DNA of 10,530 nt from contig JAFZQQ010000104.1 of NCBI GenBank assembly GCA_017620315.1, forward strand, positions 1 through 10,530. Reading direction: 5' to 3'. Shown in pieces: positions 1 through 10,530 of this stretch; positions within the stretch are counted from its first letter, which is position 1, and every line of letters starts with the position of its first letter. Source of the stretch: Oscillospiraceae bacterium (lineage in GTDB: Bacteria > Bacillota > Clostridia > Oscillospirales > Oscillospiraceae). The notes below the pieces were generated by a model. The model searched no databases, was not told the origin of the DNA, and was given only the letters and a program-made list of their open reading frames with translations. Both the position numbers and the translations under genes were made by a program.

Positions 1-223
1 ACTCCACCGCGAAGCCAGCCTCTCTGCCGACGTCGCGCAGCTTGCAGTAGTTGTTGCCGTTGATGCTGTACGCCTCGATCTGCACGGGCCTGCCGTCGAC
101 GACGATCTTCTGGCTCGACTGCTGCGCTGTGAGCGCCGCTCCTGCGACCGGGGCTACGATGGACGCGCCGAGGATGATGCCGCTCGCGACGAGCGCGATT
201 TCTTTTTTCTCTCTGCATTTCAT
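1..223 (-). CDS. Secreted stalk-domain (copper amine oxidase N-terminal-like) protein, 5' part only
   Basis: The reading frame starts with ATG at 223 (minus strand) and is open to the window edge, giving the first 74 residues. An AGGAGGG ribosome binding site lies 7 bases upstream (231-237). The N-terminus (residues 1-30) is a signal peptide: Lys/Arg/Glu-rich start, a hydrophobic stretch rich in Ala, Ile and Val, then small residues around Ala27-Ala30. After it come VDGRPVQIEAY and INGNNYCKLRDVG, which match the stalk repeat (PF07833-like) seen in many secreted clostridial proteins. Such domains usually sit on surface or secreted proteins of varied function, so the real role depends on the missing C-terminal part. 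The gene follows the ribbon-helix-helix gene on the same strand across a 98-base gap holding a palindrome. The coding frame and secretion signal are confident; the function is unknown. Confidence 0.85.
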   Translation of the reverse strand, partial: MKCREKKEIALVASGIILGASIVAPVAGAALTAQQSSQKIVVDGRPVQIEAYSINGNNYCKLRDVGREAGFAVE

Positions 224-240
224 GGGCTTGCCCTCCTTCA

Positions 241-258
241 TGTTTGGTAAACCAAACA
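241..258. promoter_or_regulatory. Palindromic operator-like site upstream of the secreted-protein gene
   Basis: TGTTTGGT-AA-ACCAAACA is an inverted repeat with perfect 8-base arms and a 2-base centre. It ends only a few bases before the ribosome binding site of the minus-strand gene starting at 223, so a bound protein would block transcription or initiation there. TGGT/ACCA arms are typical of GntR-family operators, but that assignment is only a resemblance. Two weaker inverted repeats (264-275 and 282-295) sit just beyond it. No convincing -35/-10 pair is visible in this gap. Confidence 0.5.
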
Positions 259-321
259 ATACCGAGAGCACTCTCACAAGTCGAGAACAATCTCGTTGAC
301 CAAAGGGAGAAATACCGCGCG

Positions 322-729
322 TCAGATTTGACGCTGGATGTCGAGCGCGTTGTCGAAACTGATCTGCCCGTAGGTCTCCTTGACCTCCTGCACCGCGAAC
401 TTCCGCAGCTCGTTCCGGTCGGTGACGTCGTCATTGAAGTGGGCGGCGACGGTGTGGCAGACCATGTTCAGCTCGACGCACCACTTGAACAGCAGCGAGC
501 GCATCCGGTTATTGTTGTTGTCGAGGATGCCCTTGATCATGTTGGAGAGCACCTCGCAGAGATACGACGAGGCGTCGCTTGCTTCGAGATAGCCGATGTA
601 GAATACCAGAGCATTCTCCACGAACTCGCTGCGGCTCCGGCAGTTGTTGAGCGGCATCCAGGTATCGATTTTTTGCAGGGTTTCCGGCCTGAGCCACATG
701 GTCGAGCCCTTCTTGTTCTTTTCGTTCAT
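322..729 (-). CDS. Ribbon-helix-helix (CopG-like) DNA-binding protein
   Basis: This 135-residue protein starts at ATG 729, with an AAAGGAC ribosome binding site six bases upstream. Residues 8-45 fit a ribbon-helix-helix fold: a strand GSTMWLRPETLQKIDTW leading into helix A, then SRSEFVENALVFYIGYL as helix B. The segment after residue 60 is longer than in a minimal CopG protein and predicted helical; it may mediate oligomerisation or partner binding, but I recognise no family for it. Such proteins occur on plasmids and conjugative elements as copy-number or transfer regulators, and in antitoxins; no toxin gene is adjacent. It lies downstream of two HTH genes on the same strand but is separated from them by 254 bases with hairpins, so it probably has its own transcription start. 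The DNA-binding fold is fairly secure; the target is unknown. Confidence 0.7.
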   Translation of the reverse strand: MNEKNKKGSTMWLRPETLQKIDTWMPLNNCRSRSEFVENALVFYIGYLEASDASSYLCEVLSNMIKGILDNNNNRMRSLLFKWCVELNMVCHTVAAHFNDDVTDRNELRKFAVQEVKETYGQISFDNALDIQRQI

Positions 730-771
730 AGTTGTCCTTTCTTTTACTTCCGCACAGCTTTTCAGCCGCTC

Positions 772-796
772 AAACGCCCAAAACGCGGGCGTTTTT
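772..796 (+). terminator. Hairpin with T-tract
   Basis: AAACGCCC (772-779) pairs perfectly with GGGCGTTT (787-794) around a 7-base loop and is followed by a TTTTT run, the form of an intrinsic terminator reading rightward. No plus-strand gene is evident to its left, so it may instead act as a leader hairpin for the minus-strand gene starting at 729, or insulate it from rightward transcription. Confidence 0.4.
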
Positions 797-866
797 CCTC
801 TCTGCGGTTCGGAAGCGGTGCGGAAAATCGGTAGTTTCTCAAATTACGGTGCGGAGCCTTTCTGGG

Positions 867-890
867 AAAAGACCCGCATTGCGGGGCTTT
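867..890 (-). terminator. Probable intrinsic terminator of the HTH gene pair
   Basis: Read on the minus strand, AAAG-C-CCCGC pairs with GCGGG-T-CTTT around a 3-base AAT loop with a single mismatch, and ends in a short T run. It lies about 95 bases past the stop codon of the minus-strand HTH gene (984), the correct place to end that transcript. Confidence 0.45.
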
Positions 891-896
891 GTGGGC

Positions 897-926
897 GAGC
901 CGCGCCGCGAACCGGTGCGGCTCTTT
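897..926. terminator. GC-rich hairpin, possible second terminator
   Basis: GAGCCGC (897-903) pairs with GCGGCTC (917-923) around a 13-base loop, followed on the plus strand by TTT. The orientation is ambiguous: leftward transcription from the HTH genes meets it first, but the T run is on the rightward side. It may be a structural hairpin rather than a terminator. Confidence 0.35.
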
Positions 927-983
927 ATCTTGTGCTTATTTCGCATCTCCTCCAAGGCGGGGTTCCGCGAGTCAAAACGCGTC

Positions 984-1472
984 CTACGGCGGCAGTTCCT
1001 CCGGCTCGTGCGCCGTGTGCGCCGCGACGTATTCCTCGTGCGGGATCTGTCTGCGCGTATGCTTTGCCGTCTCCGCGTCGTCGCGCTTCACCTGTCCGCG
1101 CGCGTCATAGTTCGTGAGCTGGCGCTCGTGGAAGAGGTTGACCGCGCTCTGGATCGGCAGGATCGTATAGCGCAGGTTGCCGTTCCACTTGAGACCGTCC
1201 GCCGTGGTGACGGACGTCGCCTCGATGCTGACGAGCCCTGCCTCGCACAGCTCCGCGACGTACTTGGCGACCGTGCGCTTGCTGCACCCGAACGTCTCCG
1301 CGATGTTCGCGTAGCTCGGCCAGCACTGATGCGTTTCGGGATCGGCGAGCCGGCGCAGGTACGAGTAGATGGCGAGCGCGGTCGCGCTGAGCTTGAGCTG
1401 ATAGACCTCGTTTGGCAGGATCGTGCAGTTGCTCACGCGAGGCTGCGCGGTGAACGAACTCGCGTTCTTCAC
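984..1472 (-). CDS. Winged helix-turn-helix protein (HTH_36-like)
   Basis: I place the start at GTG 1472, which overlaps the TGA of the upstream gene as GTGA and has a GGGAGG ribosome binding site six bases before it; a longer reading to ATG 1502 lacks such a site. The product is 162 residues. Residues about 15-90 read LSATALAIYSYLRRLAD...CWPSYANIAETFGCSKRTVAKYVAELCEAGLVS, a classical winged HTH in which the stretch after 'SYANIAE' is the turn and 'SKRTVAKYVAEL' the recognition helix. Domains of this type occur in plasmid and phage replication proteins and as small regulators. The C-terminal third is charged and probably disordered. The GTGA overlap with the excisionase-like gene implies coupled translation, so the two proteins probably act together, perhaps controlling a mobile element. 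The HTH is confident; the role is not. Confidence 0.75.
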   Translation of the reverse strand: MKNASSFTAQPRVSNCTILPNEVYQLKLSATALAIYSYLRRLADPETHQCWPSYANIAETFGCSKRTVAKYVAELCEAGLVSIEATSVTTADGLKWNGNLRYTILPIQSAVNLFHERQLTNYDARGQVKRDDAETAKHTRRQIPHEEYVAAHTAHEPEELPP

Positions 1473-1678
1473 AGTGCGCCTCCCGTGCTGCGCTCGACCC
1501 ACGCGATGAACTTCTCCTTCGGGACGACGACGCGGCTGCCGACCTTGAGCGCGGGGAAGTCCGGCTCGCGCATCAGCTCGTAGCCGCTCGACGGAGACAC
1601 GCCGAGCACGTCCGCCACCATCCTCGCGTTGAGGAAGAGCGGCAGCTCGTCATAGCTTTGGTACTGGGATCGTTTCAT
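1469..1678 (-). CDS. Excisionase-family helix-turn-helix protein
   Basis: This 69-residue protein starts at ATG 1678 with a GAGGAGG ribosome binding site four bases upstream. Residues 14-60 read FLNARMVADVLGVSPSSGYELMR followed by FPALKVGSRVVVPKEKFIAWVE, the MerR-like HTH_17 fold of Xis/excisionase-type proteins: an HTH, then a beta wing carrying the GSR motif and the 'K-F-WV' helix. Family members either direct excision by tyrosine recombinases or are simple regulators. No recombinase gene is in the window, so an excision role is unproven. It is the first gene of a minus-strand pair, overlaps the next gene by four bases (GTGA), and is preceded by a promoter-like sequence at 1754-1782. It is divergent from the zinc-knuckle gene at 1840. 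Confidence 0.8.
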   Translation of the reverse strand: MKRSQYQSYDELPLFLNARMVADVLGVSPSSGYELMREPDFPALKVGSRVVVPKEKFIAWVERSTGGAL

Positions 1679-1753
1679 GTTTCCTCCTCGTTGGCAGCGC
1701 GATAGGCCTCTCGCACTTGCCGCTTGATTTTTGCTTCCGAATCGGATAGCATG

Positions 1754-1782
1754 ACTGTAGCAGGCACGAGTCCCGCTTGCAA
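1754..1782 (-). promoter_or_regulatory. Promoter-like sequence for the HTH gene pair
   Basis: On the minus strand TTGCAA (1777-1782) and TACAGT (1754-1759) are separated by 17 bases, each matching the sigma-70 consensus at four of six positions. A start near 1747 would give a leader of about 70 bases before the ATG at 1678. The 161-base gap between the divergent genes (1679-1839) must hold both promoters; I see no clear one for the plus-strand gene. Confidence 0.4.
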
Positions 1783-1839
1783 TAGTTTGGAGCGGTCTTG
1801 GGAAAACCCCAAAACTCTATCGGTAACACAGGAGGGCGC

Positions 1840-2886
1840 ATGGATCAGTTTGACGCATTCTCTGTTTTCTTCTGGGATAACGACGTACACATCGGCGGAC
1901 GCACCTACCCCTTGGGGCAGACGACCGTGGACGTATTGAACCTCTCGACCGAGGAGTTCGACCGGCTCTTTGACCGCACCCAAGCCTTCGGCCGCACGTT
2001 CGACAGGATGCTTGAACGACGAGACGCGCGCATGGCGGATGACGTGCAGGCGAAGTTCAACGCCGCGCTCGACGTGATCTCCACGCTGCCGCCGTATCGG
2101 GATTTGGAACTGGATGTCGCGGCACGGACGGTGTTCCTCACCTTGCGCGATATGCCGGAGGAGTGGAACGAGGCGATGCGCCCCGGCACAGAGGGCAATC
2201 AGATGATCCAGGAGTTCGGCGCCAAGGTCGTCGCCCTGCCCGAGCGCATGAACAACTTTCGCGGGCAGGTGACGCTGATGCTGGAATTCTTTTTTGAGGA
2301 CTTGACGCGGCGCGGCAGTTCGGAGTACGGTCGTGCGTTCGACGACTACTGGCGCGCGATGGTCACGGATGGCGCGAAGCTCTATCCGCATCAGCAGTTT
2401 GAGCAGAGCTTCTCCGCGGAATTCTCGTTCGTGCCGATGCGCCATCCGGACAAGCCGGACGAATACCTTGTGGCGGAGCAGGCGAAGTTCGCGGAACTGC
2501 ACTTCTTCCTCTACACGGATTTCTACCGCGCGCTCGCGCACGGCAACGCGCCGCGCCGCTGTCACAACTGCGGGAGGTACTTTCTGCTCACACGCGGGTA
2601 CAACACCTGCTACTGCAACAACGTCGCGCCGGGCGAGACGACGCGCACCTGCCGCAAGGTTGGCGCGCACACGAAGGAGCGGCGGGAACGCGAGGGTGCG
2701 TCGCCGGTGCAGCAGGCGTACCAGCGCGCGTATGGGCGCCTGAAGATGCAGTACAGCCGCCGCAAGAGGGACGCTGCGGAGTACAACCATCTGGTGTCGC
2801 AGGCGCAGGATATCCGCGACGCCTACGCGCGCGGCGAACTCGGCGAGGAGGATGCCATCGCGCGGCTGAAGGCAATCGGAGGATAA
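1840..2886 (+). CDS. Zinc-knuckle protein resembling DUF6076
   Basis: ATG 1840 is preceded by AGGAGGG three bases upstream, so I use it instead of the in-frame ATG at 1798. The product is 348 residues. The C-terminal part holds a Cys/His cluster: C241-x2-C244 in CHNCGRYFLLT, C257 and C259 in YNTCYCNN, C271 in TCRKVGAH and H277. It is followed by a basic helical tail (about 280-348). This arrangement matches my memory of DUF6076 proteins of clostridia, which have no assigned function; the cluster resembles a zinc-binding treble clef or ribbon. The N-terminal 220 residues are mostly acidic and helical with no motif I can name. The gene is an isolated unit: divergent from the HTH genes and closed by a strong terminator before the hsd promoter. 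Coding status is very secure; family assignment is moderate; function unknown. Confidence 0.85.
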   Translation: MDQFDAFSVFFWDNDVHIGGRTYPLGQTTVDVLNLSTEEFDRLFDRTQAFGRTFDRMLERRDARMADDVQAKFNAALDVISTLPPYRDLELDVAARTVFLTLRDMPEEWNEAMRPGTEGNQMIQEFGAKVVALPERMNNFRGQVTLMLEFFFEDLTRRGSSEYGRAFDDYWRAMVTDGAKLYPHQQFEQSFSAEFSFVPMRHPDKPDEYLVAEQAKFAELHFFLYTDFYRALAHGNAPRRCHNCGRYFLLTRGYNTCYCNNVAPGETTRTCRKVGAHTKERREREGASPVQQAYQRAYGRLKMQYSRRKRDAAEYNHLVSQAQDIRDAYARGELGEEDAIARLKAIGG

Positions 2887-2888
2887 GG

Positions 2889-2936
2889 AAACCCCGCGGG
2901 ATCGGAGCGCGCTGGCGCCCGATCCCGCGGGGTTGT
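2889..2936 (+). terminator. Strong intrinsic terminator after the zinc-knuckle gene
   Basis: AACCCCGCGGGATCG (2890-2904) pairs perfectly over 15 bases with CGATCCCGCGGGGTT (2920-2934), starting four bases after the TAA stop codon. The T tail is broken (TTGTGTTT). It isolates the upstream gene from the restriction-modification operon. Confidence 0.85.
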
Positions 2937-2989
2937 GTTTAGTTACAGCGGTGAAATATTTGCGTCAAAAAGATTTGCCGTCTGAAGTG

Positions 2990-3018
2990 TTGCACATGAC
3001 ACGATTGTGTTGTAATAT
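2990..3018 (+). promoter_or_regulatory. Probable promoter of the hsd operon
   Basis: TTGCAC (2990-2995) and TAATAT (3013-3018) are 17 bases apart in a locally AT-rich stretch between the terminator and hsdR. A start near 3025 gives a leader of about 34 bases carrying the GGAGGT ribosome binding site at 3046-3051. No other promoter is evident before hsdM, so the operon is probably one transcript of more than 7.5 kb. Confidence 0.55.
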
Positions 3019-3058
3019 ATTTTTGGAAAAATATAGAAAAATGTCGGAGGTGCGGCAC

Positions 3059-5803
3059 ATGACGCCAGAGGCGAAAGCGCGGCAGGCCATTGACAAGCGG
3101 CTGGAACAGTCCGGCTGGATCATACAGGATATGCGCCAGGTCAACCCGATGGCGGCGCTCGGTGTCGCGGTGCGGGAATATCCCACCAGCACCGGGCCCG
3201 TGGACTATGCGCTGTTTGTGGACGGGAAGCCGGTCGGCGTGGTTGAGGCCAAGCGCGACGACGAGGGCGAGAACATCACCGTGGTCGAAACGCAGTCCGG
3301 GCGCTATGCAGGCAGTACCTTTAAGTACGTCAATGTCGATTACCGCATCCGCTTTGCTTATGAGGCGACGGGGAAGATGACGCGCTTCACCGACTATGAT
3401 GATATTAAGTATCGTTCGCGCGGCGTGTTTTCTTTCCACCGCCCGGAGACGCTTCAAGCACTGTTGGCGCAAACGGACACCGTCCGCAATAACCTGAAGC
3501 ATATGCCGACTCCGGATACAACAGGTTTCCGTGACTGCCAGATTGCGGCGATCCACGAGCTCGACATCTCATTTGCCGACAACAGGCCGCGGGCTCTTGT
3601 ACAGATGGCGACCGGTGCGGGTAAGACATTTACCGCCATTACTGCCGTCTATCGTTTGCTCAAATTCGGTAAAATGAAGCGTATACTGTTTCTCGTTGAT
3701 ACGAAGAACCTCGGCGAACAGGCGGAGGATGAATTCAGAAAGTATCGTCCAAACGACGATGCGCGAACCTTCCCGGAGCTTTATCCGATTTACCGTCTGA
3801 AATCAGCAAAGATGCCCAAGGATACCCTTGTCTATATCAGTACCATTCAGCGGATGTACTCTATCCTTAAAGGTGAGGAGTTGGACGAATCTGCGGAGGA
3901 GGAATCTTTCTTTGAAAAAGTCTCTGCGGACAGGCAGCCTGTTCGGGAGGTTGTCTATAACGCGAAGATCCCGCCGGAGTTCTTCGACTGCATCATCGTG
4001 GACGAGTGTCACCGCTCCATCTACAATGTCTGGAGTCAGGTGCTTGAATACTTCGACGCATTTCTCATTGGGCTGACAGCTACGCCGGATGCCCGCACGA
4101 TTGCTTTCTTTCAGCAAAACATGGTCAGCGAATATTCCCGCGAACAGGCGATCATCGATGGCGTGAACGTCGGTGAGGATATCTTTATCATCGAAACCGC
4201 TGTTGGCAAGAGCGGTGGGCATATTATGAAACAGCTGATTGAGAAACGCAACCGCTTGACACGAGAGAAACGCTGGAAGCAGATGGATGAGGATGTGGAC
4301 TATGCCGCAACGCAGCTTGACAGAGACGTGGTGAATCCGAGCCAGATTCGCACGGTCATCCAATGCTTCAAGGACAACTTGTCGCAGCTGTTCCCGCGCC
4401 GTGTGGAAGTCCCCAAAACGCTGATTTTCGCCAAAACTGACAGTCACGCGGACGATATCATTCAGGTCGTGCGCGACGTGTTCGGTGAGGGAAATGAGTT
4501 TTGTCGGAAAATCACCTATCAGGTGGACAATCCCAGAGATTTGATTCGTGAATTTGCAAACGACTATAATCCGCGCATTGCCGTCACGGTGGACATGATC
4601 GCCACCGGCACGGACGTCAAACCCATCGAGTGTCTGATCTTCATGCGCGACGTGCGCAGCCGCAACTATTTCGAGCAGATGAAAGGCCGCGGCACAAGAG
4701 TGCTCGGAAAGGATGATCTGCAAAAGGTTACGCCGTCGGCGACCGAGAACAAAGACCACTTCGTTATCATTGATGCCGTGGGTGTGACGCGCTCGAAGAA
4801 AACCAGCACACGCTCATTGGAGCGTAAACCCTCCGTCAGCATGAAGGAGCTGATGCTCAACGTGGCGATGGGCGCGAAGGATGAGGACACACTGACCTCA
4901 CTCGCCAATCGCGTCATCCGCCTCAACAGTCAGATGACGCCGCGGGAGCGCACGGAGTTTGCGGAGATCGTCGGCGCGAGCGCCGGGGTAGTAGCGCAGA
5001 GCCTCCTGGATGCCTTTGACGAGGATGTGATTGCCGCGCGGGCGGGCGTTACACTAACCGACGACCACGAACCGATGCCAGAGGAGCGCGAACGCATGGA
5101 CGCCGCGCAGAAGGAACTGATTCAAACCGCGGTGCAGCCGTTCTTCCGCCCCGAGGTGCGCGAGTATATCGAAAACGTGCGCCGCAGTCACGAGCAGATC
5201 ATCGACAGCGTGAACCTTGACACGGTGACGTATGCGGGCTTTGATGCCGACAAGCAGGCGAATGCTGAGCGCGCCATACAGGCGTTCCATACGTTTATCG
5301 AGGAGAATCGGGACGAGATCATCGCCCTGCGGCTCATTTATGACCAGAGGTATAAGGATCGTCCCATGGTGATCGAGCAGCTGCAAAAGCTGTACGAAAA
5401 GCTCAAGGCCAAGGGCGTGACCTACGAGCGGCTGTGGGACTGCTATGCCATCAAACGCCCGGAGAAGGTTCGCGGGACGGCGGCGCAGCTTGCTGACCTC
5501 GTTTCGCTTGTGCGCTTCGAGATGGGATTTACCGACGACCTCTCGCCGTTTGCGGAGCGCGTGAATTACAACTTCATGCAGTGGACGCTGCGCCGCAACG
5601 CGGGCGCGGTACACTTCACGGACGAGCAGATGGACTGGCTGCGGCTCATCAAGGATCATATTGCATCGTCACTGAGCATCGAGCCGGGCGACCTCGACCT
5701 GAACCCCTTCGACCACAAGGGCGGCCTTGGGCGGTTTTATGAGGTATTTGGTGAGCGGTATGAGGAGATTTTAAAGGAAATGAACGCGGAGCTGGTAGCG
5801 TGA
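3059..5803 (+). CDS. hsdR: Type I restriction endonuclease subunit R
   Basis: HsdR is the ATP-dependent translocase and nuclease of a type I complex; it pumps DNA past the bound HsdM/HsdS core and cuts unmodified DNA. The 914-residue protein shows, in order, the N-terminal PD-(D/E)XK nuclease (D49 in VDYALF, E63-x-K65 in VVEAKR), helicase motif I MATGAGKT (183-190), motif II DECH (315-318), motif III LTATP (339-343), motif V ATGTD (515-519) and motif VI QMKGRGTR (540-547). The C-terminus resembles the EcoEI_R C-terminal domain that docks to the methyltransferase, ending in FYEVFGERYEEILKEMNAEL. All catalytic motifs are intact, so it should be active. I use ATG 3059 because GGAGGT lies seven bases before it; the frame stays open upstream to 2933, but the promoter overlaps that stretch. 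A degraded copy of its 3' end appears at 6327-6356. Confidence 0.97.
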   Translation: MTPEAKARQAIDKRLEQSGWIIQDMRQVNPMAALGVAVREYPTSTGPVDYALFVDGKPVGVVEAKRDDEGENITVVETQSGRYAGSTFKYVNVDYRIRFAYEATGKMTRFTDYDDIKYRSRGVFSFHRPETLQALLAQTDTVRNNLKHMPTPDTTGFRDCQIAAIHELDISFADNRPRALVQMATGAGKTFTAITAVYRLLKFGKMKRILFLVDTKNLGEQAEDEFRKYRPNDDARTFPELYPIYRLKSAKMPKDTLVYISTIQRMYSILKGEELDESAEEESFFEKVSADRQPVREVVYNAKIPPEFFDCIIVDECHRSIYNVWSQVLEYFDAFLIGLTATPDARTIAFFQQNMVSEYSREQAIIDGVNVGEDIFIIETAVGKSGGHIMKQLIEKRNRLTREKRWKQMDEDVDYAATQLDRDVVNPSQIRTVIQCFKDNLSQLFPRRVEVPKTLIFAKTDSHADDIIQVVRDVFGEGNEFCRKITYQVDNPRDLIREFANDYNPRIAVTVDMIATGTDVKPIECLIFMRDVRSRNYFEQMKGRGTRVLGKDDLQKVTPSATENKDHFVIIDAVGVTRSKKTSTRSLERKPSVSMKELMLNVAMGAKDEDTLTSLANRVIRLNSQMTPRERTEFAEIVGASAGVVAQSLLDAFDEDVIAARAGVTLTDDHEPMPEERERMDAAQKELIQTAVQPFFRPEVREYIENVRRSHEQIIDSVNLDTVTYAGFDADKQANAERAIQAFHTFIEENRDEIIALRLIYDQRYKDRPMVIEQLQKLYEKLKAKGVTYERLWDCYAIKRPEKVRGTAAQLADLVSLVRFEMGFTDDLSPFAERVNYNFMQWTLRRNAGAVHFTDEQMDWLRLIKDHIASSLSIEPGDLDLNPFDHKGGLGRFYEVFGERYEEILKEMNAELVA

Positions 5804-5814
5804 GGAGAGAGAAA

Positions 5815-6324
5815 ATGAAAAAGCAGCAAAGCAGCACCTTAACGAAGATATGGTATCATGCGCTAACAATTACGCTTCTGATTGTCTCTTATCTGCTGAA
5901 GAAGCCTGTGATTTTCGTGGTTTCTGACAGAATTGGTGCAACGATTGCAGCTGTATTTACTTTCGCGGCTCATATTATGCTACTAAAAACTGCACAGAAT
6001 ATTGAAGGGGGAGGAATCAAAGGGCCTATATGGATTGGGTGTGGGGCAATTATGCTTTATCAATTGCTCTTGTTCTACCCCAAAGAGAAGATTTGGCATC
6101 AGGTATCGATTCTGCTATTAGTTTTCTGCTATATTTTTATGGCTGTATATGGAACAATTGAACTGCTTGTCTCCTTAAAGAAAAAACTTGAGGAGATGAA
6201 GAAAATAGAAAATAAAAAAGATAAAGGTGTTGAAAGCATTGAAAGCTTAATTGCGATTGTTACAGCACTTGTTGCAATTGGGCTAACCTGTGTTGGACTT
6301 TTACAAAATAGCAATGGAGTATAA
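5815..6324 (+). CDS. Five-helix membrane protein embedded between hsdR and hsdS
   Basis: ATG 5815 has an AGGAGA ribosome binding site six bases upstream, and only 11 bases separate it from the hsdR stop codon, so it is in the operon. The 169-residue product has five hydrophobic segments (about 16-28, 40-57, 71-88, 97-120 and 144-163). A highly charged, probably coiled-coil loop KKKLEEMKKIENKKDKG (122-138) lies before the last one. The N-terminus is short and basic. No catalytic motif and no family I recognise. It is AT-richer than hsdR, with the A/T-ending codons shared by the other extra genes in this operon. A relic of the hsdR 3' end lies between it and hsdS, suggesting later insertion. 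Possible roles are a membrane anchor or effector linked to restriction; this is inference only. Confidence 0.85.
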   Translation: MKKQQSSTLTKIWYHALTITLLIVSYLLKKPVIFVVSDRIGATIAAVFTFAAHIMLLKTAQNIEGGGIKGPIWIGCGAIMLYQLLLFYPKEKIWHQVSILLLVFCYIFMAVYGTIELLVSLKKKLEEMKKIENKKDKGVESIESLIAIVTALVAIGLTCVGLLQNSNGV

Positions 6325-6326
6325 TG

Positions 6327-6356
6327 CGGAAAATGGTTGTAAAGTTGGTGGCGTGA
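6327..6356 (+). pseudogene. Degraded copy of the hsdR 3' end
   Basis: Aligned without gaps to the last 30 bases of hsdR (5774-5803), 20 of 30 positions agree, including 13 of the last 15. Translated, it reads RKMVVKLVA-stop against KEMNAELVA-stop. Most differences are transitions. It abuts hsdS (one base between its TGA and ATG 6358). The simplest reading is that hsdR once ended here and a second copy of its tail was created when the membrane-protein gene came in. Confidence 0.6.
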
Positions 6357-6357
6357 G

Positions 6358-7485
6358 ATGGCTGAATGGAAAGAATATAGATTGGAGCAGCTACTGTCCT
6401 ATGAGCAGCCAACGTCATACATAGTTGAATCTACCGACTATGATGACAAGTACAAAACGCCTGTTTTGACTGCGGGAAAGTCTTTCATTTTGGGCTATAC
6501 GGACGAGCAAGAGGGGATCTACAATACCCTGCCAGTAATTATATTTGATGATTTTACAACTGCGAGCCAGTATGTTAATTTTCCGTTCAAGGTCAAATCG
6601 TCTGCAATGAAAATACTGACGGCGAACACAGAGCTGGTTTTGCCAAGGTTCATCTATTACCGAATGCAAATTATCGAGTTTGACCACAGCACACACAAAC
6701 GGTATTGGATTCAGCAGTATTCCAAAATAAAAGTCAGTATCCCGCCTCTCCCCGAGCAGCAGCGTATCGTTTCCCGCATCGAAGAATTGTTCTCGCAGTT
6801 GGACAGCGGCATAGAAACACTGCGCAAGGCCAAGCAGCAGTTGGCGGTGTACCGTCAGGCTGTGCTGAAAGAAGCGTTTGGCAATTTGCGGGAAAAACGC
6901 CCAATCCGTGAAATGTCATCTACTGTAACAAGCGGCTCGAGGGGATGGGCACAGTATTATGCTGACAGTGGTGCCAGATTTATTCGTATTACAGATTTGA
7001 CAAGAGATCGAATCCGGCTGAAAAATGACAGCATCCAATATGTTGCTTTGCCTGATAATGTTGAGGGGAAACGAAGCCGATTATTGGCAGATGATGTATT
7101 GATTTCAATTACCGCAGACTTAGGTAGCATTGCGCTTGTGCCAAAGGACATACCAGAGGCATATATAAATCAGCATATTGCCATGGTACGGTTTCAAAAT
7201 CCAAATCAAGGTGAATTTATGGCATGGTATTTGAAAAGCGAGCACGGGCAAAAGGATTTACTTAAGAATAAACGCGGTGGTGGTAAGCTTGGGCTTGGAC
7301 TTGACGACATTCGAGATACGCTCGTTCCTGTTGTGGACGATAAAACCGCCCAAAGTATTGTCGCACGAATAGATAGCCGATTATCAGTTTGCGATAATAT
7401 CGAGCTGACCGTCGATGCCGCTTTGCAGCAAGCTGAGGCGCTACGGCAGAGCATTTTGAAGCAAGCTTTTGAGAGGGGATTATAA
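6358..7485 (+). CDS. hsdS: Type I restriction-modification specificity subunit S
   Basis: HsdS reads the bipartite target sequence and scaffolds the HsdM2HsdS and HsdR complexes. This 375-residue protein has two target-recognition domains. TRD1 (about 1-125) contains VLTAGKSFILGYT and VIIFDDFTT. The central conserved spacer (128-178) reads IPPLPEQQRIVSRIEELF and ends VLKEAFG. TRD2 (about 180-315) contains SGSRGWAQYYADSGARFIR and ADLGSI. The C-terminal repeat (about 320-375) ends LRQSILKQAFERGL. Both helices are present, so it is full length and not a half-S protein. The ribosome binding site is weak (GGTGG, about seven bases upstream). TRD2 is clearly more AT-rich than the central spacer, as expected if TRDs are exchanged horizontally. 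The recognised sequence cannot be read from the protein. A relic of its 3' end occurs at 8950-9003. Confidence 0.96.
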   Translation: MAEWKEYRLEQLLSYEQPTSYIVESTDYDDKYKTPVLTAGKSFILGYTDEQEGIYNTLPVIIFDDFTTASQYVNFPFKVKSSAMKILTANTELVLPRFIYYRMQIIEFDHSTHKRYWIQQYSKIKVSIPPLPEQQRIVSRIEELFSQLDSGIETLRKAKQQLAVYRQAVLKEAFGNLREKRPIREMSSTVTSGSRGWAQYYADSGARFIRITDLTRDRIRLKNDSIQYVALPDNVEGKRSRLLADDVLISITADLGSIALVPKDIPEAYINQHIAMVRFQNPNQGEFMAWYLKSEHGQKDLLKNKRGGGKLGLGLDDIRDTLVPVVDDKTAQSIVARIDSRLSVCDNIELTVDAALQQAEALRQSILKQAFERGL

Positions 7486-7486
7486 A

Positions 7487-8134
7487 ATGGAGTTGTATAA
7501 AAATACTGAGGAAGCATTTGTCAATTACCTCAAACGGCATGGTTATCCGGATGAGAGTATATCGCTTGAATGGGGAACTACACAATGTGCAATTGACATC
7601 GCTGTTTTGGCAAGTGATTTGATTACGCCGGTTGCTGTTTATGAGATCAAAGGGCGAAAAACTCCGGAAATAATTCGAAAAGGAATAGACCAATTAAAGC
7701 GCGCTGTAAAGTTTTTCGATATAACTGTTTCCTGCAATTTGGTTTTTGGCTCAGATAACGCCACTGGCTTTGAAGTTATAGATGTGACAAAAAACGTTTA
7801 TAACGATGAACCGATCAACATATCAGAAATCATGGAATCGCACCCATTAAAAAAGCCTATATCCTATGGAATAATGCAAGCTGGAGCTACCAGCAAGGCA
7901 ATTTCCAAAAGAATAAAAAATAAGCAAGAAAAGATAGACCGTATAAAGTGGCTTTGTTGGTTGCTGTTTCCACTTCTTGCAATCGTTCTTTTATTGTTAG
8001 ATGCCTTTGGTAAATACCAGATAACCGCTCTGAGATTAGCTGTGATTGGAGCGACTGTAGTCATTATTCTGATACCGTTTTTTAGTGAAATTACTCTAAA
8101 AGATGTTACATTTAAGCGAAAGAGCGGAAACTGA
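7487..8134 (+). CDS. Membrane-anchored PD-(D/E)XK nuclease-like protein
   Basis: ATG 7487 follows the hsdS stop codon by one base; the GAGGGG ribosome binding site lies inside the end of hsdS. The 215-residue product has an N-terminal PD-(D/E)XK pattern: E9 in the first helix, D37 in CAIDIAVL, and E53-x-K55 in VYEIKGRK, then a helix IRKGIDQLKRAVKFF and a strand CNLVFG. This resembles the N-terminal nuclease domain of type I R subunits (HSDR_N_2-like). A basic linker (137-154) leads to two hydrophobic helices (155-173 and 182-199) with a short cytoplasmic tail KRKSGN. By the positive-inside rule the nuclease domain should face the cytoplasm. It is AT-rich relative to hsdR and hsdM. All three core nuclease residues are present, so activity is plausible, but cleavage has not been shown; it could also be a binding module. 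Confidence 0.8.
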   Translation: MELYKNTEEAFVNYLKRHGYPDESISLEWGTTQCAIDIAVLASDLITPVAVYEIKGRKTPEIIRKGIDQLKRAVKFFDITVSCNLVFGSDNATGFEVIDVTKNVYNDEPINISEIMESHPLKKPISYGIMQAGATSKAISKRIKNKQEKIDRIKWLCWLLFPLLAIVLLLLDAFGKYQITALRLAVIGATVVIILIPFFSEITLKDVTFKRKSGN

Positions 8135-8137
8135 TAC

Positions 8138-8209
8138 ACACCCGGCCAATTTCCCACCGTCATCCCCAAGGCCAGGGGCATATGAGGCTCGCTACTGGAT
8201 GGCAGCGTG
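8138..8209 (+). pseudogene. Degraded copy of the hsdM 5' end (copy 1)
   Basis: Bases 8144-8209 align without gaps to 9649-9714 of hsdM with 47 of 66 identical, and 15 of the 19 differences are transitions. In the hsdM frame it reads GQFPTVIPKARGI-stop-GSLLDGSV against DQSSSIISKVWGM-C-GPLRDDGV. The position of the hsdM start codon is ACA here (8138-8140), and TGC has become a TGA stop. It lies directly after the membrane-anchored nuclease gene, just as hsdM itself follows the last cargo gene. Confidence 0.75.
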
Positions 8210-8232
8210 AGGGGTATAATCGAGGTGACACA

Positions 8233-8838
8233 ATGGAATGTGATGCAAATCCTTATCGTGATCTGCCTATATCGATTAGTCCGGTAGAATTTGAAAAATT
8301 CTGTATGGAAACATTAAAAGCCTATGCAGCGGAGGAATCCTTACAGAATTTCGTGATTAAACACAATCAAAAAGTAGAAACTTACGATAGTACATATCAA
8401 ATTGATGTTTTAGCAGAATATACTGCATTGGGTTGCAAAAACATCGTTGTTATTGAATGCAAAAAGTATTCTCGAAACGTTGAACGGGCTGTTGTGGCTG
8501 AATTGTACTCTAAACTACAAAGCATGGGGGCTCAAAAAGGAATTCTTATTTCGACAAGTGGGTTTCAGTCTGATGCTGTGAAATTCGCAAAACAGCACGG
8601 GATAGCTTTGTGGCAGGTATGTGACCGTTCTATCAAGCATTATAGTGCTGCAGCAAGCAGAGAAATACCCCCACATATCCTTTTTCAACTCAAAATGGAG
8701 GAGTTCTTGCCAAAGTTCATTATGATGGAATGGGATTGTAATGCGGACTACCCCTACAATGAGTTGTATCCAACATCGGAAATGTATAGTAATGCAAGAT
8801 CTCAGGCTCGTGAGGCTTTGGCTAAAGAACGCAGGTAA
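8233..8838 (+). CDS. Mrr-like restriction endonuclease-fold protein
   Basis: I take ATG 8233, preceded by GAGGTG five bases upstream; an in-frame ATG at 8182 lies inside the hsdM relic and has no ribosome binding site. The 201-residue protein carries an Mrr_cat-type PD-(D/E)XK core: E21 in the first helix (EFEKFCMETLKAY), D58 in YQIDVLAEY, E75-x-K77 in VVIECKKYS. These are followed by the family-typical VAELYSKLQSMGAQKGILISTSGF, then QSDAVKFAKQHGIALW. Mrr proteins are type IV enzymes that cut modified DNA; others in this fold have no modification dependence. There is no membrane helix and no extra specificity domain except a C-terminal tail of about 60 residues of unknown fold. All core residues are intact. 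It lies inside the hsd operon between two hsdM relics and is AT-rich, which suggests cargo acquired separately from the hsd genes. Confidence 0.87.
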   Translation: MECDANPYRDLPISISPVEFEKFCMETLKAYAAEESLQNFVIKHNQKVETYDSTYQIDVLAEYTALGCKNIVVIECKKYSRNVERAVVAELYSKLQSMGAQKGILISTSGFQSDAVKFAKQHGIALWQVCDRSIKHYSAAASREIPPHILFQLKMEEFLPKFIMMEWDCNADYPYNELYPTSEMYSNARSQAREALAKERR

Positions 8839-8846
8839 TTTAAATC

Positions 8847-8927
8847 AAAGAGAACACCGAAGCCTGACAATGCCCCACCATCATTTCCAAGGCTCGAGGT
8901 ATGTACGACTCGTTGAGGAACGACAGC
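8847..8927 (+). pseudogene. Degraded copy of the hsdM leader and 5' end (copy 2)
   Basis: Bases 8871-8927 match 9655-9711 of hsdM at 43 of 57 positions, and the similarity continues upstream through the leader: 8847-8868 aligns with 9630-9651, including an AAAGAGA counterpart of the hsdM ribosome binding site. The start codon is AAG instead of ATG (8860-8862) and one base is missing soon after it. In the hsdM frame it reads TIISKARGMYDSLRNDS against SIISKVWGMCGPLRDDG. It begins 8 bases after the stop codon of the Mrr-like gene. Confidence 0.8.
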
Positions 8928-8949
8928 ACCTTTGCTATTGGCGGTATAA

Positions 8950-9003
8950 GTGAAGATTCTGCGGCAGAGCATTTTAGAGCAAGCGTTTGAGGGGGAATTG
9001 TGA
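8950..9003 (+). pseudogene. Degraded copy of the hsdS 3' end
   Basis: Translated, this stretch reads KILRQSILEQAFEGEL-stop against EALRQSILKQAFERGL-stop at the true hsdS terminus, with 14 consecutive identical bases (8962-8975 against 7444-7457). A TAA lies in frame directly before it (8947-8949). It sits about 20 bases after the second hsdM relic, so the order here is hsdM start then hsdS end, as expected if a tandem unit lost its middle. Its TGA stop overlaps the GTG start of the next gene, and its GAGGGGG supplies that gene's ribosome binding site. Confidence 0.85.
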
Positions 9004-9650
9004 AAGTGCCAACGATAACAGACTGGCTGATGGTTGGAATTACCGCCGTGTATGTAGTTGCAACCATTATGATTTGCTGGGCAAATATCAACTCTGCCAA
9101 AGCAACACGGGAGCAGATTGCAGAATCAAAAAAACAGTTCGAGGAAACGAAGCGGATAAGCGTTTTACCAGAGTTGTGGATAGAGGCAGAGCAAGAAAAT
9201 GATACAATGTTAATACCCGATATTACGCTGATGCTTTGTAATCCCCCAAAAGTCAACGATTATACCTACTATACAATGTTTGCGCTTGAGTTAAATAATA
9301 TTGGCTCCGGTTCGGCCAAAGAAATAGCATACTCGTGGAAACATGACGAAGAGGTATACGGGAAAGGTAGTTTTCCTCGCCCTATTGTATTTCCAAAAGA
9401 AAGCTGTACGATAGTTGCTGAGGTCTGCATTGCACCGGAGGATATTGGCGATGAAGACTCTGTGCAGAGTAGAACGCTAAGCTTAACTTATAAGGACTTG
9501 CTCAACAACACTTACGAGCAAGAAGTAGAGTTATCTTTTTACGTTTATGGTGAAAAAACTTATAGCGAGGGAAATGCCCTACGCATTGCAAAATGCGTAA
9601 CATATCCCGCTGAATTAAAGACTAATATCAAGGAGACCATCAATGTCTGA
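9000..9650 (+). CDS. Single-pass membrane protein with coiled coil and beta-rich domain
   Basis: The start is GTG 9000, with GAGGGGG four bases upstream; both lie within the hsdS relic and give a GTGA overlap. The 216-residue product has one N-terminal membrane helix (about 8-29, WLMVGITAVYVVATIMICWA), a charged helix likely to be a coiled coil (30-52, KATREQIAESKKQFEETKR), and a C-terminal region rich in predicted strands (about 55-200, with ALELNNIGSGSAKEIAYSW and LSLTYKDLLNNTYEQEVELSFYV). That region could be an immunoglobulin-like sandwich. No catalytic motif is visible and I do not recognise the family. Topology is unclear from charge alone. The end overlaps the hsdM start by eight bases and encloses the hsdM ribosome binding site, so the two are translated together. 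A role as membrane sensor or anchor for the hsd complex is a guess. Confidence 0.85.
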   Translation: MKVPTITDWLMVGITAVYVVATIMICWANINSAKATREQIAESKKQFEETKRISVLPELWIEAEQENDTMLIPDITLMLCNPPKVNDYTYYTMFALELNNIGSGSAKEIAYSWKHDEEVYGKGSFPRPIVFPKESCTIVAEVCIAPEDIGDEDSVQSRTLSLTYKDLLNNTYEQEVELSFYVYGEKTYSEGNALRIAKCVTYPAELKTNIKETINV

Positions 9651-10530
9651 CCAATCTTCCTCCATCATCTCCAAGGTTTGGGGTATGTGCGGCCCGTTGC
9701 GGGACGACGGCGTGTCCTACGGCGACTATTTGGAGCAGCTTACTTACCTGATCTTCCTCAAAATGTCCGACGAGTACGCCAAGCCGCCTTACAAGCGCGA
9801 AACCGGCATCCCTGCCGGTTACACATGGTCGGATATGAACACGCTGACCGGCGCGGAGCTGGAAACAAAATACAAGGCGATCCTCGAAAAACTCGGCGAG
9901 CAGGGCGGCATCCTCGGGCAGATTTTCCAGGGCGCAATCAACAAGGTCAGCAACGCCGCGATCCTTTACCGCATCGTGCAGATGATCGACAAGGAAAAAT
10001 GGGTATCCATGTCCTCCGACGTCAAGGGCGAGATCTACGAGGGCCTGCTGCAAAAGAACGCGGAGGACGTCAAAAGCGGCGCGGGACAGTATTTCACGCC
10101 GCGCCCGCTGATCCGCGCGATGGTCAAGTGTCTGCGCCCTGAGCCGATGAAGACCATCGCCGATCCCTGCTGCGGCAGCGGCGGCTTTTTCCTCGCGGCG
10201 CAGGAGTTCCTTGCCGATCCCGCGAACTATACGCTCGATCGTGAGAAGAAGGAGTTCCTCAAAAACGAGACCTTCTACGGAAACGAGCTGGTGTCGACCA
10301 CATTCAAGCTGGCGCTGATGAACCTATACCTGCATAACATCGGCGACATCTACGGCAACGTGCCGATCAAGCGCGGCGACTCGCTGCTGACCGATCCGGG
10401 CTGGCGCGCCGATTATGTGATGACCAATCCACCGTTCGGCAAGAAGTCCTCTCTGACCTTCACCAACGAGGAGGGCGAGCAGGAGGAAGAGAATTTGGTC
10501 TACAACCGGCAGGATTTCTGGACGACCAGC
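9643..10530 (+). CDS. hsdM: Type I restriction-modification methyltransferase subunit M (5' part)
   Basis: HsdM transfers a methyl group from S-adenosylmethionine to adenine N6 at the site chosen by HsdS and protects host DNA. ATG 9643 has AAGGAG seven bases upstream. The first 296 residues are present and the frame is open at the window end; full HsdM proteins are about 480-520 residues. Residues 1-135 form the helical HsdM_N domain (SYGDYLEQLTYLIFLKM). The methylase domain follows, with GAGQYFTPRPLI, the SAM-binding motif I DPCCGSGGFF (174-183) and the catalytic motif IV NPPFG (262-266), typical of N6-adenine enzymes. The gene is GC-rich like hsdR and contrasts with the AT-rich cargo just before it. 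It is the third core gene of the operon, after hsdR and hsdS. Confidence 0.97.
   Translation, partial: MSDQSSSIISKVWGMCGPLRDDGVSYGDYLEQLTYLIFLKMSDEYAKPPYKRETGIPAGYTWSDMNTLTGAELETKYKAILEKLGEQGGILGQIFQGAINKVSNAAILYRIVQMIDKEKWVSMSSDVKGEIYEGLLQKNAEDVKSGAGQYFTPRPLIRAMVKCLRPEPMKTIADPCCGSGGFFLAAQEFLADPANYTLDREKKEFLKNETFYGNELVSTTFKLALMNLYLHNIGDIYGNVPIKRGDSLLTDPGWRADYVMTNPPFGKKSSLTFTNEEGEQEEENLVYNRQDFWTTS

Follow-up and report, generated by a model that had tools for sequence, protein, structure and literature searches.

How accessory defence genes enter the operons of type I restriction-modification systems, and how several of them come to be stacked side by side, has mostly been guessed so far. The question is raised anew by a stretch of 10,530 nucleotides (nt) from an Oscillospiraceae bacterium (GenBank assembly GCA_017620315.1, contig JAFZQQ010000104.1, positions 1 to 10,530), referred to here as the window, in which hsdR, a small junction gene, hsdS, three further genes (cargos A, B and C) and the start of hsdM follow one another, all on the + strand. 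Adjacent hsdR, hsdS and hsdM genes with the domains of their families in Pfam and PADLOC searches identified a type I restriction-modification locus, its hsdM being cut by the contig end. An initial annotation of the window had noticed hsdM-like pieces between the cargos. These pieces, together with a piece of hsdS, are probably scars left when alleles of a single type I locus recombined.

The hsdM-like pieces were aligned with hsdM and their scores compared with those of 2000 dinucleotide-preserving shuffles each. In the gap between cargos A and B (gap 1), relic 1 (8146-8209) aligned with hsdM positions 9651-9714 without gaps at 46 of 64 letters, with a score of 28 against a shuffle maximum of 16.5. 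In the gap between cargos B and C (gap 2), relic 2 (8841-8928) aligned with 9623-9711 at 67 of 87 letters with two one-base gaps, scoring 42 against a maximum of 19. No shuffle reached either score (0/2000), and the two hsdM-start relics thus passed the shuffling test that the initial annotation had itself named. When the window was scanned for the hsdM start as far as hsdM itself, the 12 best places listed all overlapped these two relics, and a profile of hsdM starts recovered them with E-values of 0.0022 (relic 1) and 0.00014 (relic 2). Inspection by eye showed that both stretches lack an ATG and that a stop interrupts the hsdM frame of relic 1. The unit of cargo plus hsdM start had been counted three times; the third is hsdM itself, which leaves two informative units.

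The relics had been described as pieces of hsdM only, which proved incomplete, since a relic of hsdS is also present: 8959-9005 matched the stretch around the hsdS stop (7441-7487) at 39 of 47 letters, and a profile of hsdS ends placed it at 8956-9001 with an E-value of 3e-7. This relic lies after hsdM relic 2 and continues into the beginning of cargo C. Gap 2 therefore has an hsdM start first and an hsdS end second, with cargo B before them and cargo C and hsdM behind; this order is the scar expected from stacking one hsdS-cargo-hsdM allele onto another. The two hsdM relics have kept similar proportions of hsdM letters (47/70 in relic 1 and 52/69 in relic 2, a small difference). Both differ from hsdM at 9 positions and carry the same letter at 6 of them, three of which fall in columns nearly fixed among related loci; a common decayed ancestor of the two relics may explain these shared differences, which are too few to separate common descent from transition bias.

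Related loci were assembled to place these scars in context. Searches of genome contigs found 269 relatives, the best 80 of which were kept as named loci, and further loci came from whole-genome searches (positive genomes, own genome counted and with differing cut-offs: family 10/200 and 16/400, order 7/394, class 7/391) and three from viral contigs. In a second panel the short loci of the whole-genome searches were replaced by longer stretches. Three loci with a partial or distant hsdM (L090-L092), 13 duplicates and one locus lacking an hsdM start (L068) were removed, and the final panel comprised 96 loci including the window, 89 with a measurable hsdS and 7 without a usable one. When both strands of all 96 loci were searched with the hsdM-start profile (E < 0.05, more than 150 nt from a locus's own start, the relic profile being blind within 150 nt of an intact hsdS end or hsdM start), three matches were obtained, namely the two window relics and one in L011. 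This last locus carries the same double scar in a better preserved form: cargo 1 is followed by an hsdM-start piece of 62 bases, an hsdS-end piece of about 104 bases, cargo 2 and hsdM, the hsdM relic matching its own hsdM at 57 of 62 letters and the hsdS relic being 77% identical to its own hsdS end. Both cargos of this locus belong to one family, F3 (L011:5143-6999). A further scar was found in L062, where a relative of cargo B is followed by 73 bases of hsdS end and then by another cargo. The junction between hsdR and hsdS provided a similar case, as about 270 bases of hsdR end (L007:4184-4454) lie between two genes of that junction in L007, which is the same kind of scar at a second docking site. 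A supposed hsdS-start relic before it was not convincing, and weak scores in L022 (hsdS-like, 4/300 shuffles as high) and L064 (hsdM-like at one joint, 6/300; hsdS-like at another, 12/300) were not counted as relics.

The origin of the pieces was approached through their nearest relatives. Each of the three hsdM relics was nearest to the resident hsdM among the 96 loci, relic 1 being tied with L006 at 69%. The hsdS relic of the window was 77% identical to the resident hsdS, which ranked 13 of 89, and 85% identical to two others. Such a pattern would be expected if the hsdM start were resident and the hsdS end incoming. The window agrees with this picture of a resident hsdM start left stranded and joined to hsdS sequence from outside; the pieces are short, and the agreement is less sure elsewhere.

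The survey of junctions showed that the space between hsdS and hsdM is a repeatedly used docking site, as the initial annotation had proposed. In 20 of the 89 loci the two genes abut directly (-8 to +2 nt), as had been anticipated for cargo-free relatives, and in the remaining 69 they are separated by an insert, 138 to 4901 nt long, whose cargo differs between related loci. The hsdR/hsdS junction is likewise loaded, with a gap of more than 150 nt in 33 of 79 measured loci (hsdS starts being approximate). Clustering of the 139 open reading frames (ORFs) of at least 60 residues in both junctions, some of these ORFs probably being spurious, gave 54 families; among the 23 with more than one member, 16 occurred in the hsdS/hsdM junction only, 5 in the hsdR/hsdS junction only and 2 in both. 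Each cargo family of the window was found elsewhere as the sole cargo ORF between hsdS and hsdM: that of cargo A (F7) in L116, that of cargo B (F4) in L033, L081 and L113, and that of cargo C (F0) in eleven loci, L065, L030 and L016 among them. Moreover, F7 adjoins hsdM in L061 and L069.

It was also observed that hsdS and its adjoining cargo are exchanged jointly within a conserved frame of hsdR and hsdM. The loci L028, L034 and L040 are 97.9-98.3% identical in hsdM (first 888 bases) and 96.7-98.4% in hsdR (last 900 bases), with hsdS genes that are only 53.9-56.3% identical, their similarity being limited to about the last 90-120 bases, and with cargos of the families F6, F29 and F3, respectively. 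Near-identical hsdR and hsdM genes with such different contents indicate that hsdS and cargo were replaced together between kept flanks, so that DNA specificity and cargo change at once. Furthermore, when labels were mapped on a quick hsdM tree of the 96 rows and their changes compared with 300 shuffles, five families were as scattered as shuffled labels: F3, F4, F5, F6 and F7 required 7, 7, 6, 6 and 4 changes for 7, 7, 6, 6 and 4 loci, counts that most shuffles did not exceed. F0 required 15 changes for its 18 loci, and 65 of 300 shuffles were as low.

Recombination between alleles of the locus is favoured because the window relics surpass all shuffles, L011 repeats their order, L062 and L007 carry scars of their own, cargos A, B and C each occur alone elsewhere, F3 to F7 are scattered, the contents of L028, L034 and L040 differ, and the hsdM relics are nearest to the resident hsdM. 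How the pieces were joined we infer as follows. An exchange would usually replace the cargo and leave no trace; occasionally, an incoming piece made of hsdS end, cargo and hsdM would be added beside the resident cargo, one side pairing in hsdM as a homologous anchor and the other joining without homology in or just before the start of the resident hsdM. The product would read hsdS, cargo 1 and a stranded hsdM start, followed by the incoming hsdS end, cargo 2 and hsdM. Two such events would account for the window, with A present first and B and then C added on the hsdM side, an order that the small difference in relic identity would only faintly favour. Homology-facilitated illegitimate recombination combines one homologous anchor with one non-homologous joint and would give a scar of this kind; at the hsdM relic ends, where the joints are decayed, no microhomology pattern was seen, and any DNA uptake would be conjectural.

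Several observations weigh against this reading. Relics were detected at 4 of the 21 inter-cargo joints found in 17 multi-cargo loci (ORFs of at least 100 residues), two in the window and one each in L011 and L062, and at none in L142, a plasmid locus outside the panel with two cargos, so that most multi-cargo junctions give this route no direct evidence. Three of the four joints have an hsdM start, that of L062 having none, and two (window gap 2 and L011) have the hsdM start followed by the hsdS end. An hsdS end was undetectable in gap 1, where 692 of 2000 shuffles scored as well. In L011 and L062 the resident hsdS ranked 4 and 6 of 89 as a relative of the hsdS relic, within one percentage point of the best, so that an incoming hsdS end is no more than a possibility there, which slightly lowers the odds of this reading. 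The hsdM relics end within 12 nt of one another (+61, about +70 and +72), a clustering that plain illegitimate joining does not predict, and 9-mers common to hsdM starts and hsdS ends were not concentrated at these ends, the joints being decayed. On the hsdM tree, the cargo adjoining hsdM needed 56 changes for 28 states on 89 rows (shuffles 59-68) and the empty or loaded condition 11 changes (shuffles 14-20), fewer than in the shuffles, and cargo is thus partly inherited with hsdM. In addition, no pair of strains from before and after an accretion was found.

A tandem duplication of the whole hsdS-cargo-hsdM block, through unequal crossing-over or because a second copy integrated, followed by deletions that reduced the inner hsdM to its start and the inner hsdS to its end, would leave the same order of hsdM start and hsdS end. 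It agrees with the closeness of the L011 and L062 hsdS relics to the resident hsdS and with the single family of the L011 cargos, and two copies in one cell are conceivable, as the locus family also occurs on the plasmid pMM59_01 of Pusillibacter faecalis, typed conjugative, and a second, broken hsdM was found in one of nine genomes searched (G1129). However, among the tblastn matches listed for the first panel there was no second long hsdM upstream of hsdM, and the three cargo families of the window, with an hsdS relic clearly closer to other loci, make self-duplication alone insufficient there; this route is considered unlikely, although it retains more weight than the others that follow. 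The initial annotation had left the choice between recombination of alleles carrying different cargo, which is retained here, and a cassette-type insertion. A dedicated cassette mechanism, in which site-specific insertion places cargo at the hsdM start together with a replacement hsdM 5′ end, would explain why the three hsdM relics end so near to one another, but 66 of the 69 loaded junctions had no relic at the sensitivity used, the hsdS-end relics measure about 47-50, 73 and 104 nt instead of having constant borders, and L062 joins at the end of a cargo without an hsdM start, which together render such a mechanism very improbable. The same counts do not support an hsdM start at the end of each cargo, proposed as a rule (3 of 21 inter-cargo joints); an hsdM-start relic beside other cargo exists in L011, and none was detected in most loci. 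A semi-mobile module of hsdS and cargo that joins preferentially at about +61 to +72 of hsdM, by which the operon would accumulate accessory defence genes through a repeatable, undescribed end-joining, is improbable too, if somewhat less so than a cassette. Finally, the hsdM-like stretches might be a conserved leader serving the cargo genes, since each lies upstream of a cargo start, or might have arisen by chance; chance is excluded by the shuffles, and a leader is scarcely credible when only L011 among the 96 loci has another such copy, when neither stretch has an ATG and when relic 1 is interrupted in the hsdM frame.

Cargo within type I loci has been published, and the proposal that a type I locus acting as a docking site would be new does not stand. 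In Campylobacter jejuni, intervening genes were named mlo (between hsdS and hsdM) and rlo (between hsdR and hsdS) (PMC5183652, citing Miller et al. 2005). They occupy the two junctions that are loaded here, in a locus with the same order hsdR-hsdS-hsdM; they belong to another bacterial group, and the consulted portions of that article mention no hsdM-start or hsdS-end scars. Similarly, DarTG2 was located between hsdS and hsdR at a site termed a potential recombination hotspot (PMC12255303), TgvAB inside a Vibrio cholerae type I locus (PMC11411939) and prrC embedded in a type I locus (PMC12707154). These too are defence genes within a type I operon; they differ as one- or two-gene systems for which the consulted portions of the sources describe no scars of successive insertion. 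In Staphylococcus aureus, hsdS variants common to several lineages were accompanied by changed flanking genes, according to the part of the source consulted (PMC12829572). Scars of hsdM start and hsdS end appear unreported in the literature searched, whose coverage excludes most subscription journals. As they preserve the 5′ end of one hsd gene and the 3′ end of the one that follows, such events become readable. With DNA specificity and cargo changing together, each hsd allele would be a package of target specificity and accessory gene, and the rate of swapping versus stacking becomes testable.

Features of the window (positions in nt of the whole stretch)
Feature	Position	Strand	Remarks
hsdR	3059..5803	+	Pfam EcoEI_R_C, ResIII, HSDR_N; relatives keep the order R-S-M
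Small gene F43, hsdR/hsdS junction	5800..6324	+	Hydrophobic by eye
hsdS	6358..7485	+	Pfam Methylase_S
hsdS 3′ end, intact counterpart of the hsdS relic	7441..7487	+	83% to 8959-9005
Cargo A (F7)	7487..8134	+	PD-(D/E)XK-like pattern (presumed); hydrophobic C-terminal part by eye
hsdM-start relic 1	8138..8209	+	Corresponds to hsdM nt about +1 to +72
Cargo B (F4)	8233..8838	+	Mrr_cat nuclease family
hsdM-start relic 2, including the stretch directly upstream of hsdM	8841..8928	+	Reaches hsdM about +70
hsdS-end relic	8956..9005	+	Extends into the start of cargo C
Cargo C (F0)	9000..9650	+	N-terminal segment conserved, rest variable
hsdM	9643..10530	+	Pfam N6_Mtase, HsdM_N; truncated at the contig end; first bases lie within the end of cargo C

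As for the cargos themselves, cargo B was assigned to Mrr_cat (Pfam, 2.5e-17), bearing out the Mrr-like label it had been given, with PADLOC matches limited to weak ones to PDC-S02 and mREase_IV. Cargo A had no Pfam match; its residues E28, D37, E53 and K55 were invariant in 22 of 22 aligned sequences, which we take to be a PD-(D/E)XK-like pattern. F0, the family of cargo C, is the largest of the panel (18 ORFs); over the first 52 residues its 17 other members showed a median identity of 62% to cargo C (range 16-78), with 15-28% in the remainder, and the conserved N-terminus and divergent remainder suggest that the family is itself a mosaic. Between the window (9000-9155) and its F0 relatives, the N-terminus of about 52 residues is kept, and the remaining parts differ widely, as if the 3′ part could be exchanged. 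PADLOC gave no match for cargos A and C or for 8 of 10 panel cargos, F11 matching PDC-S31, and NCBIfam searches of 10 proteins gave none above family cut-offs. Sequence searches of the PDB returned nothing useful for cargo A, cargo C or F3, the best match of cargo C (aminopeptidase N, E 0.0098) being taken as chance, and the second cargo of L011 matched nothing in Pfam, PADLOC, NCBIfam or PDB. Among 20 panel proteins from both junctions, 10 had no Pfam match at E 0.01; the others matched DUF6414, DUF2971 (three), DUF4062, DUF4238, DUF5677 and RhuM or, below the cut-off, HEPN_Cthe2314 and 7tm_7. Judging from the Mrr and PD-(D/E)XK-like cargos and from the gene overlaps, the cargo probably serves as accessory defence and is probably expressed together with the operon.

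Cargo loss was seen alongside gain: L075 holds a shortened, broken remainder of an F0 gene that is intact in L067. A 138-nt insert in L078 appeared by eye to be the truncated start of a cargo A relative. Viewed by eye, the 309-residue protein P0003 seems to join about the first 165 residues of HsdR (PF04313) to a downstream portion of a homologue of cargo C, and it looks like the product of a deletion. The same protein guided by eye the choice of the ATG at 3059 as the likelier start of hsdR, whose ORF as listed begins at 2933. The small gene F43 had no relative among the 139 panel ORFs. The part left of hsdR (322-2886) contains genes with HTH_36 and DUF6076 domains (Pfam) and two small genes, for which the names MobC and Xis are our own presumption. 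Among 97 records (window included), relatives of these left-part genes were found in 5 for MobC, 7 for HTH36, 5 for Xis and 4 for DUF6076, and their recurrence near some hsd loci of the family perhaps reflects a mobile backbone.

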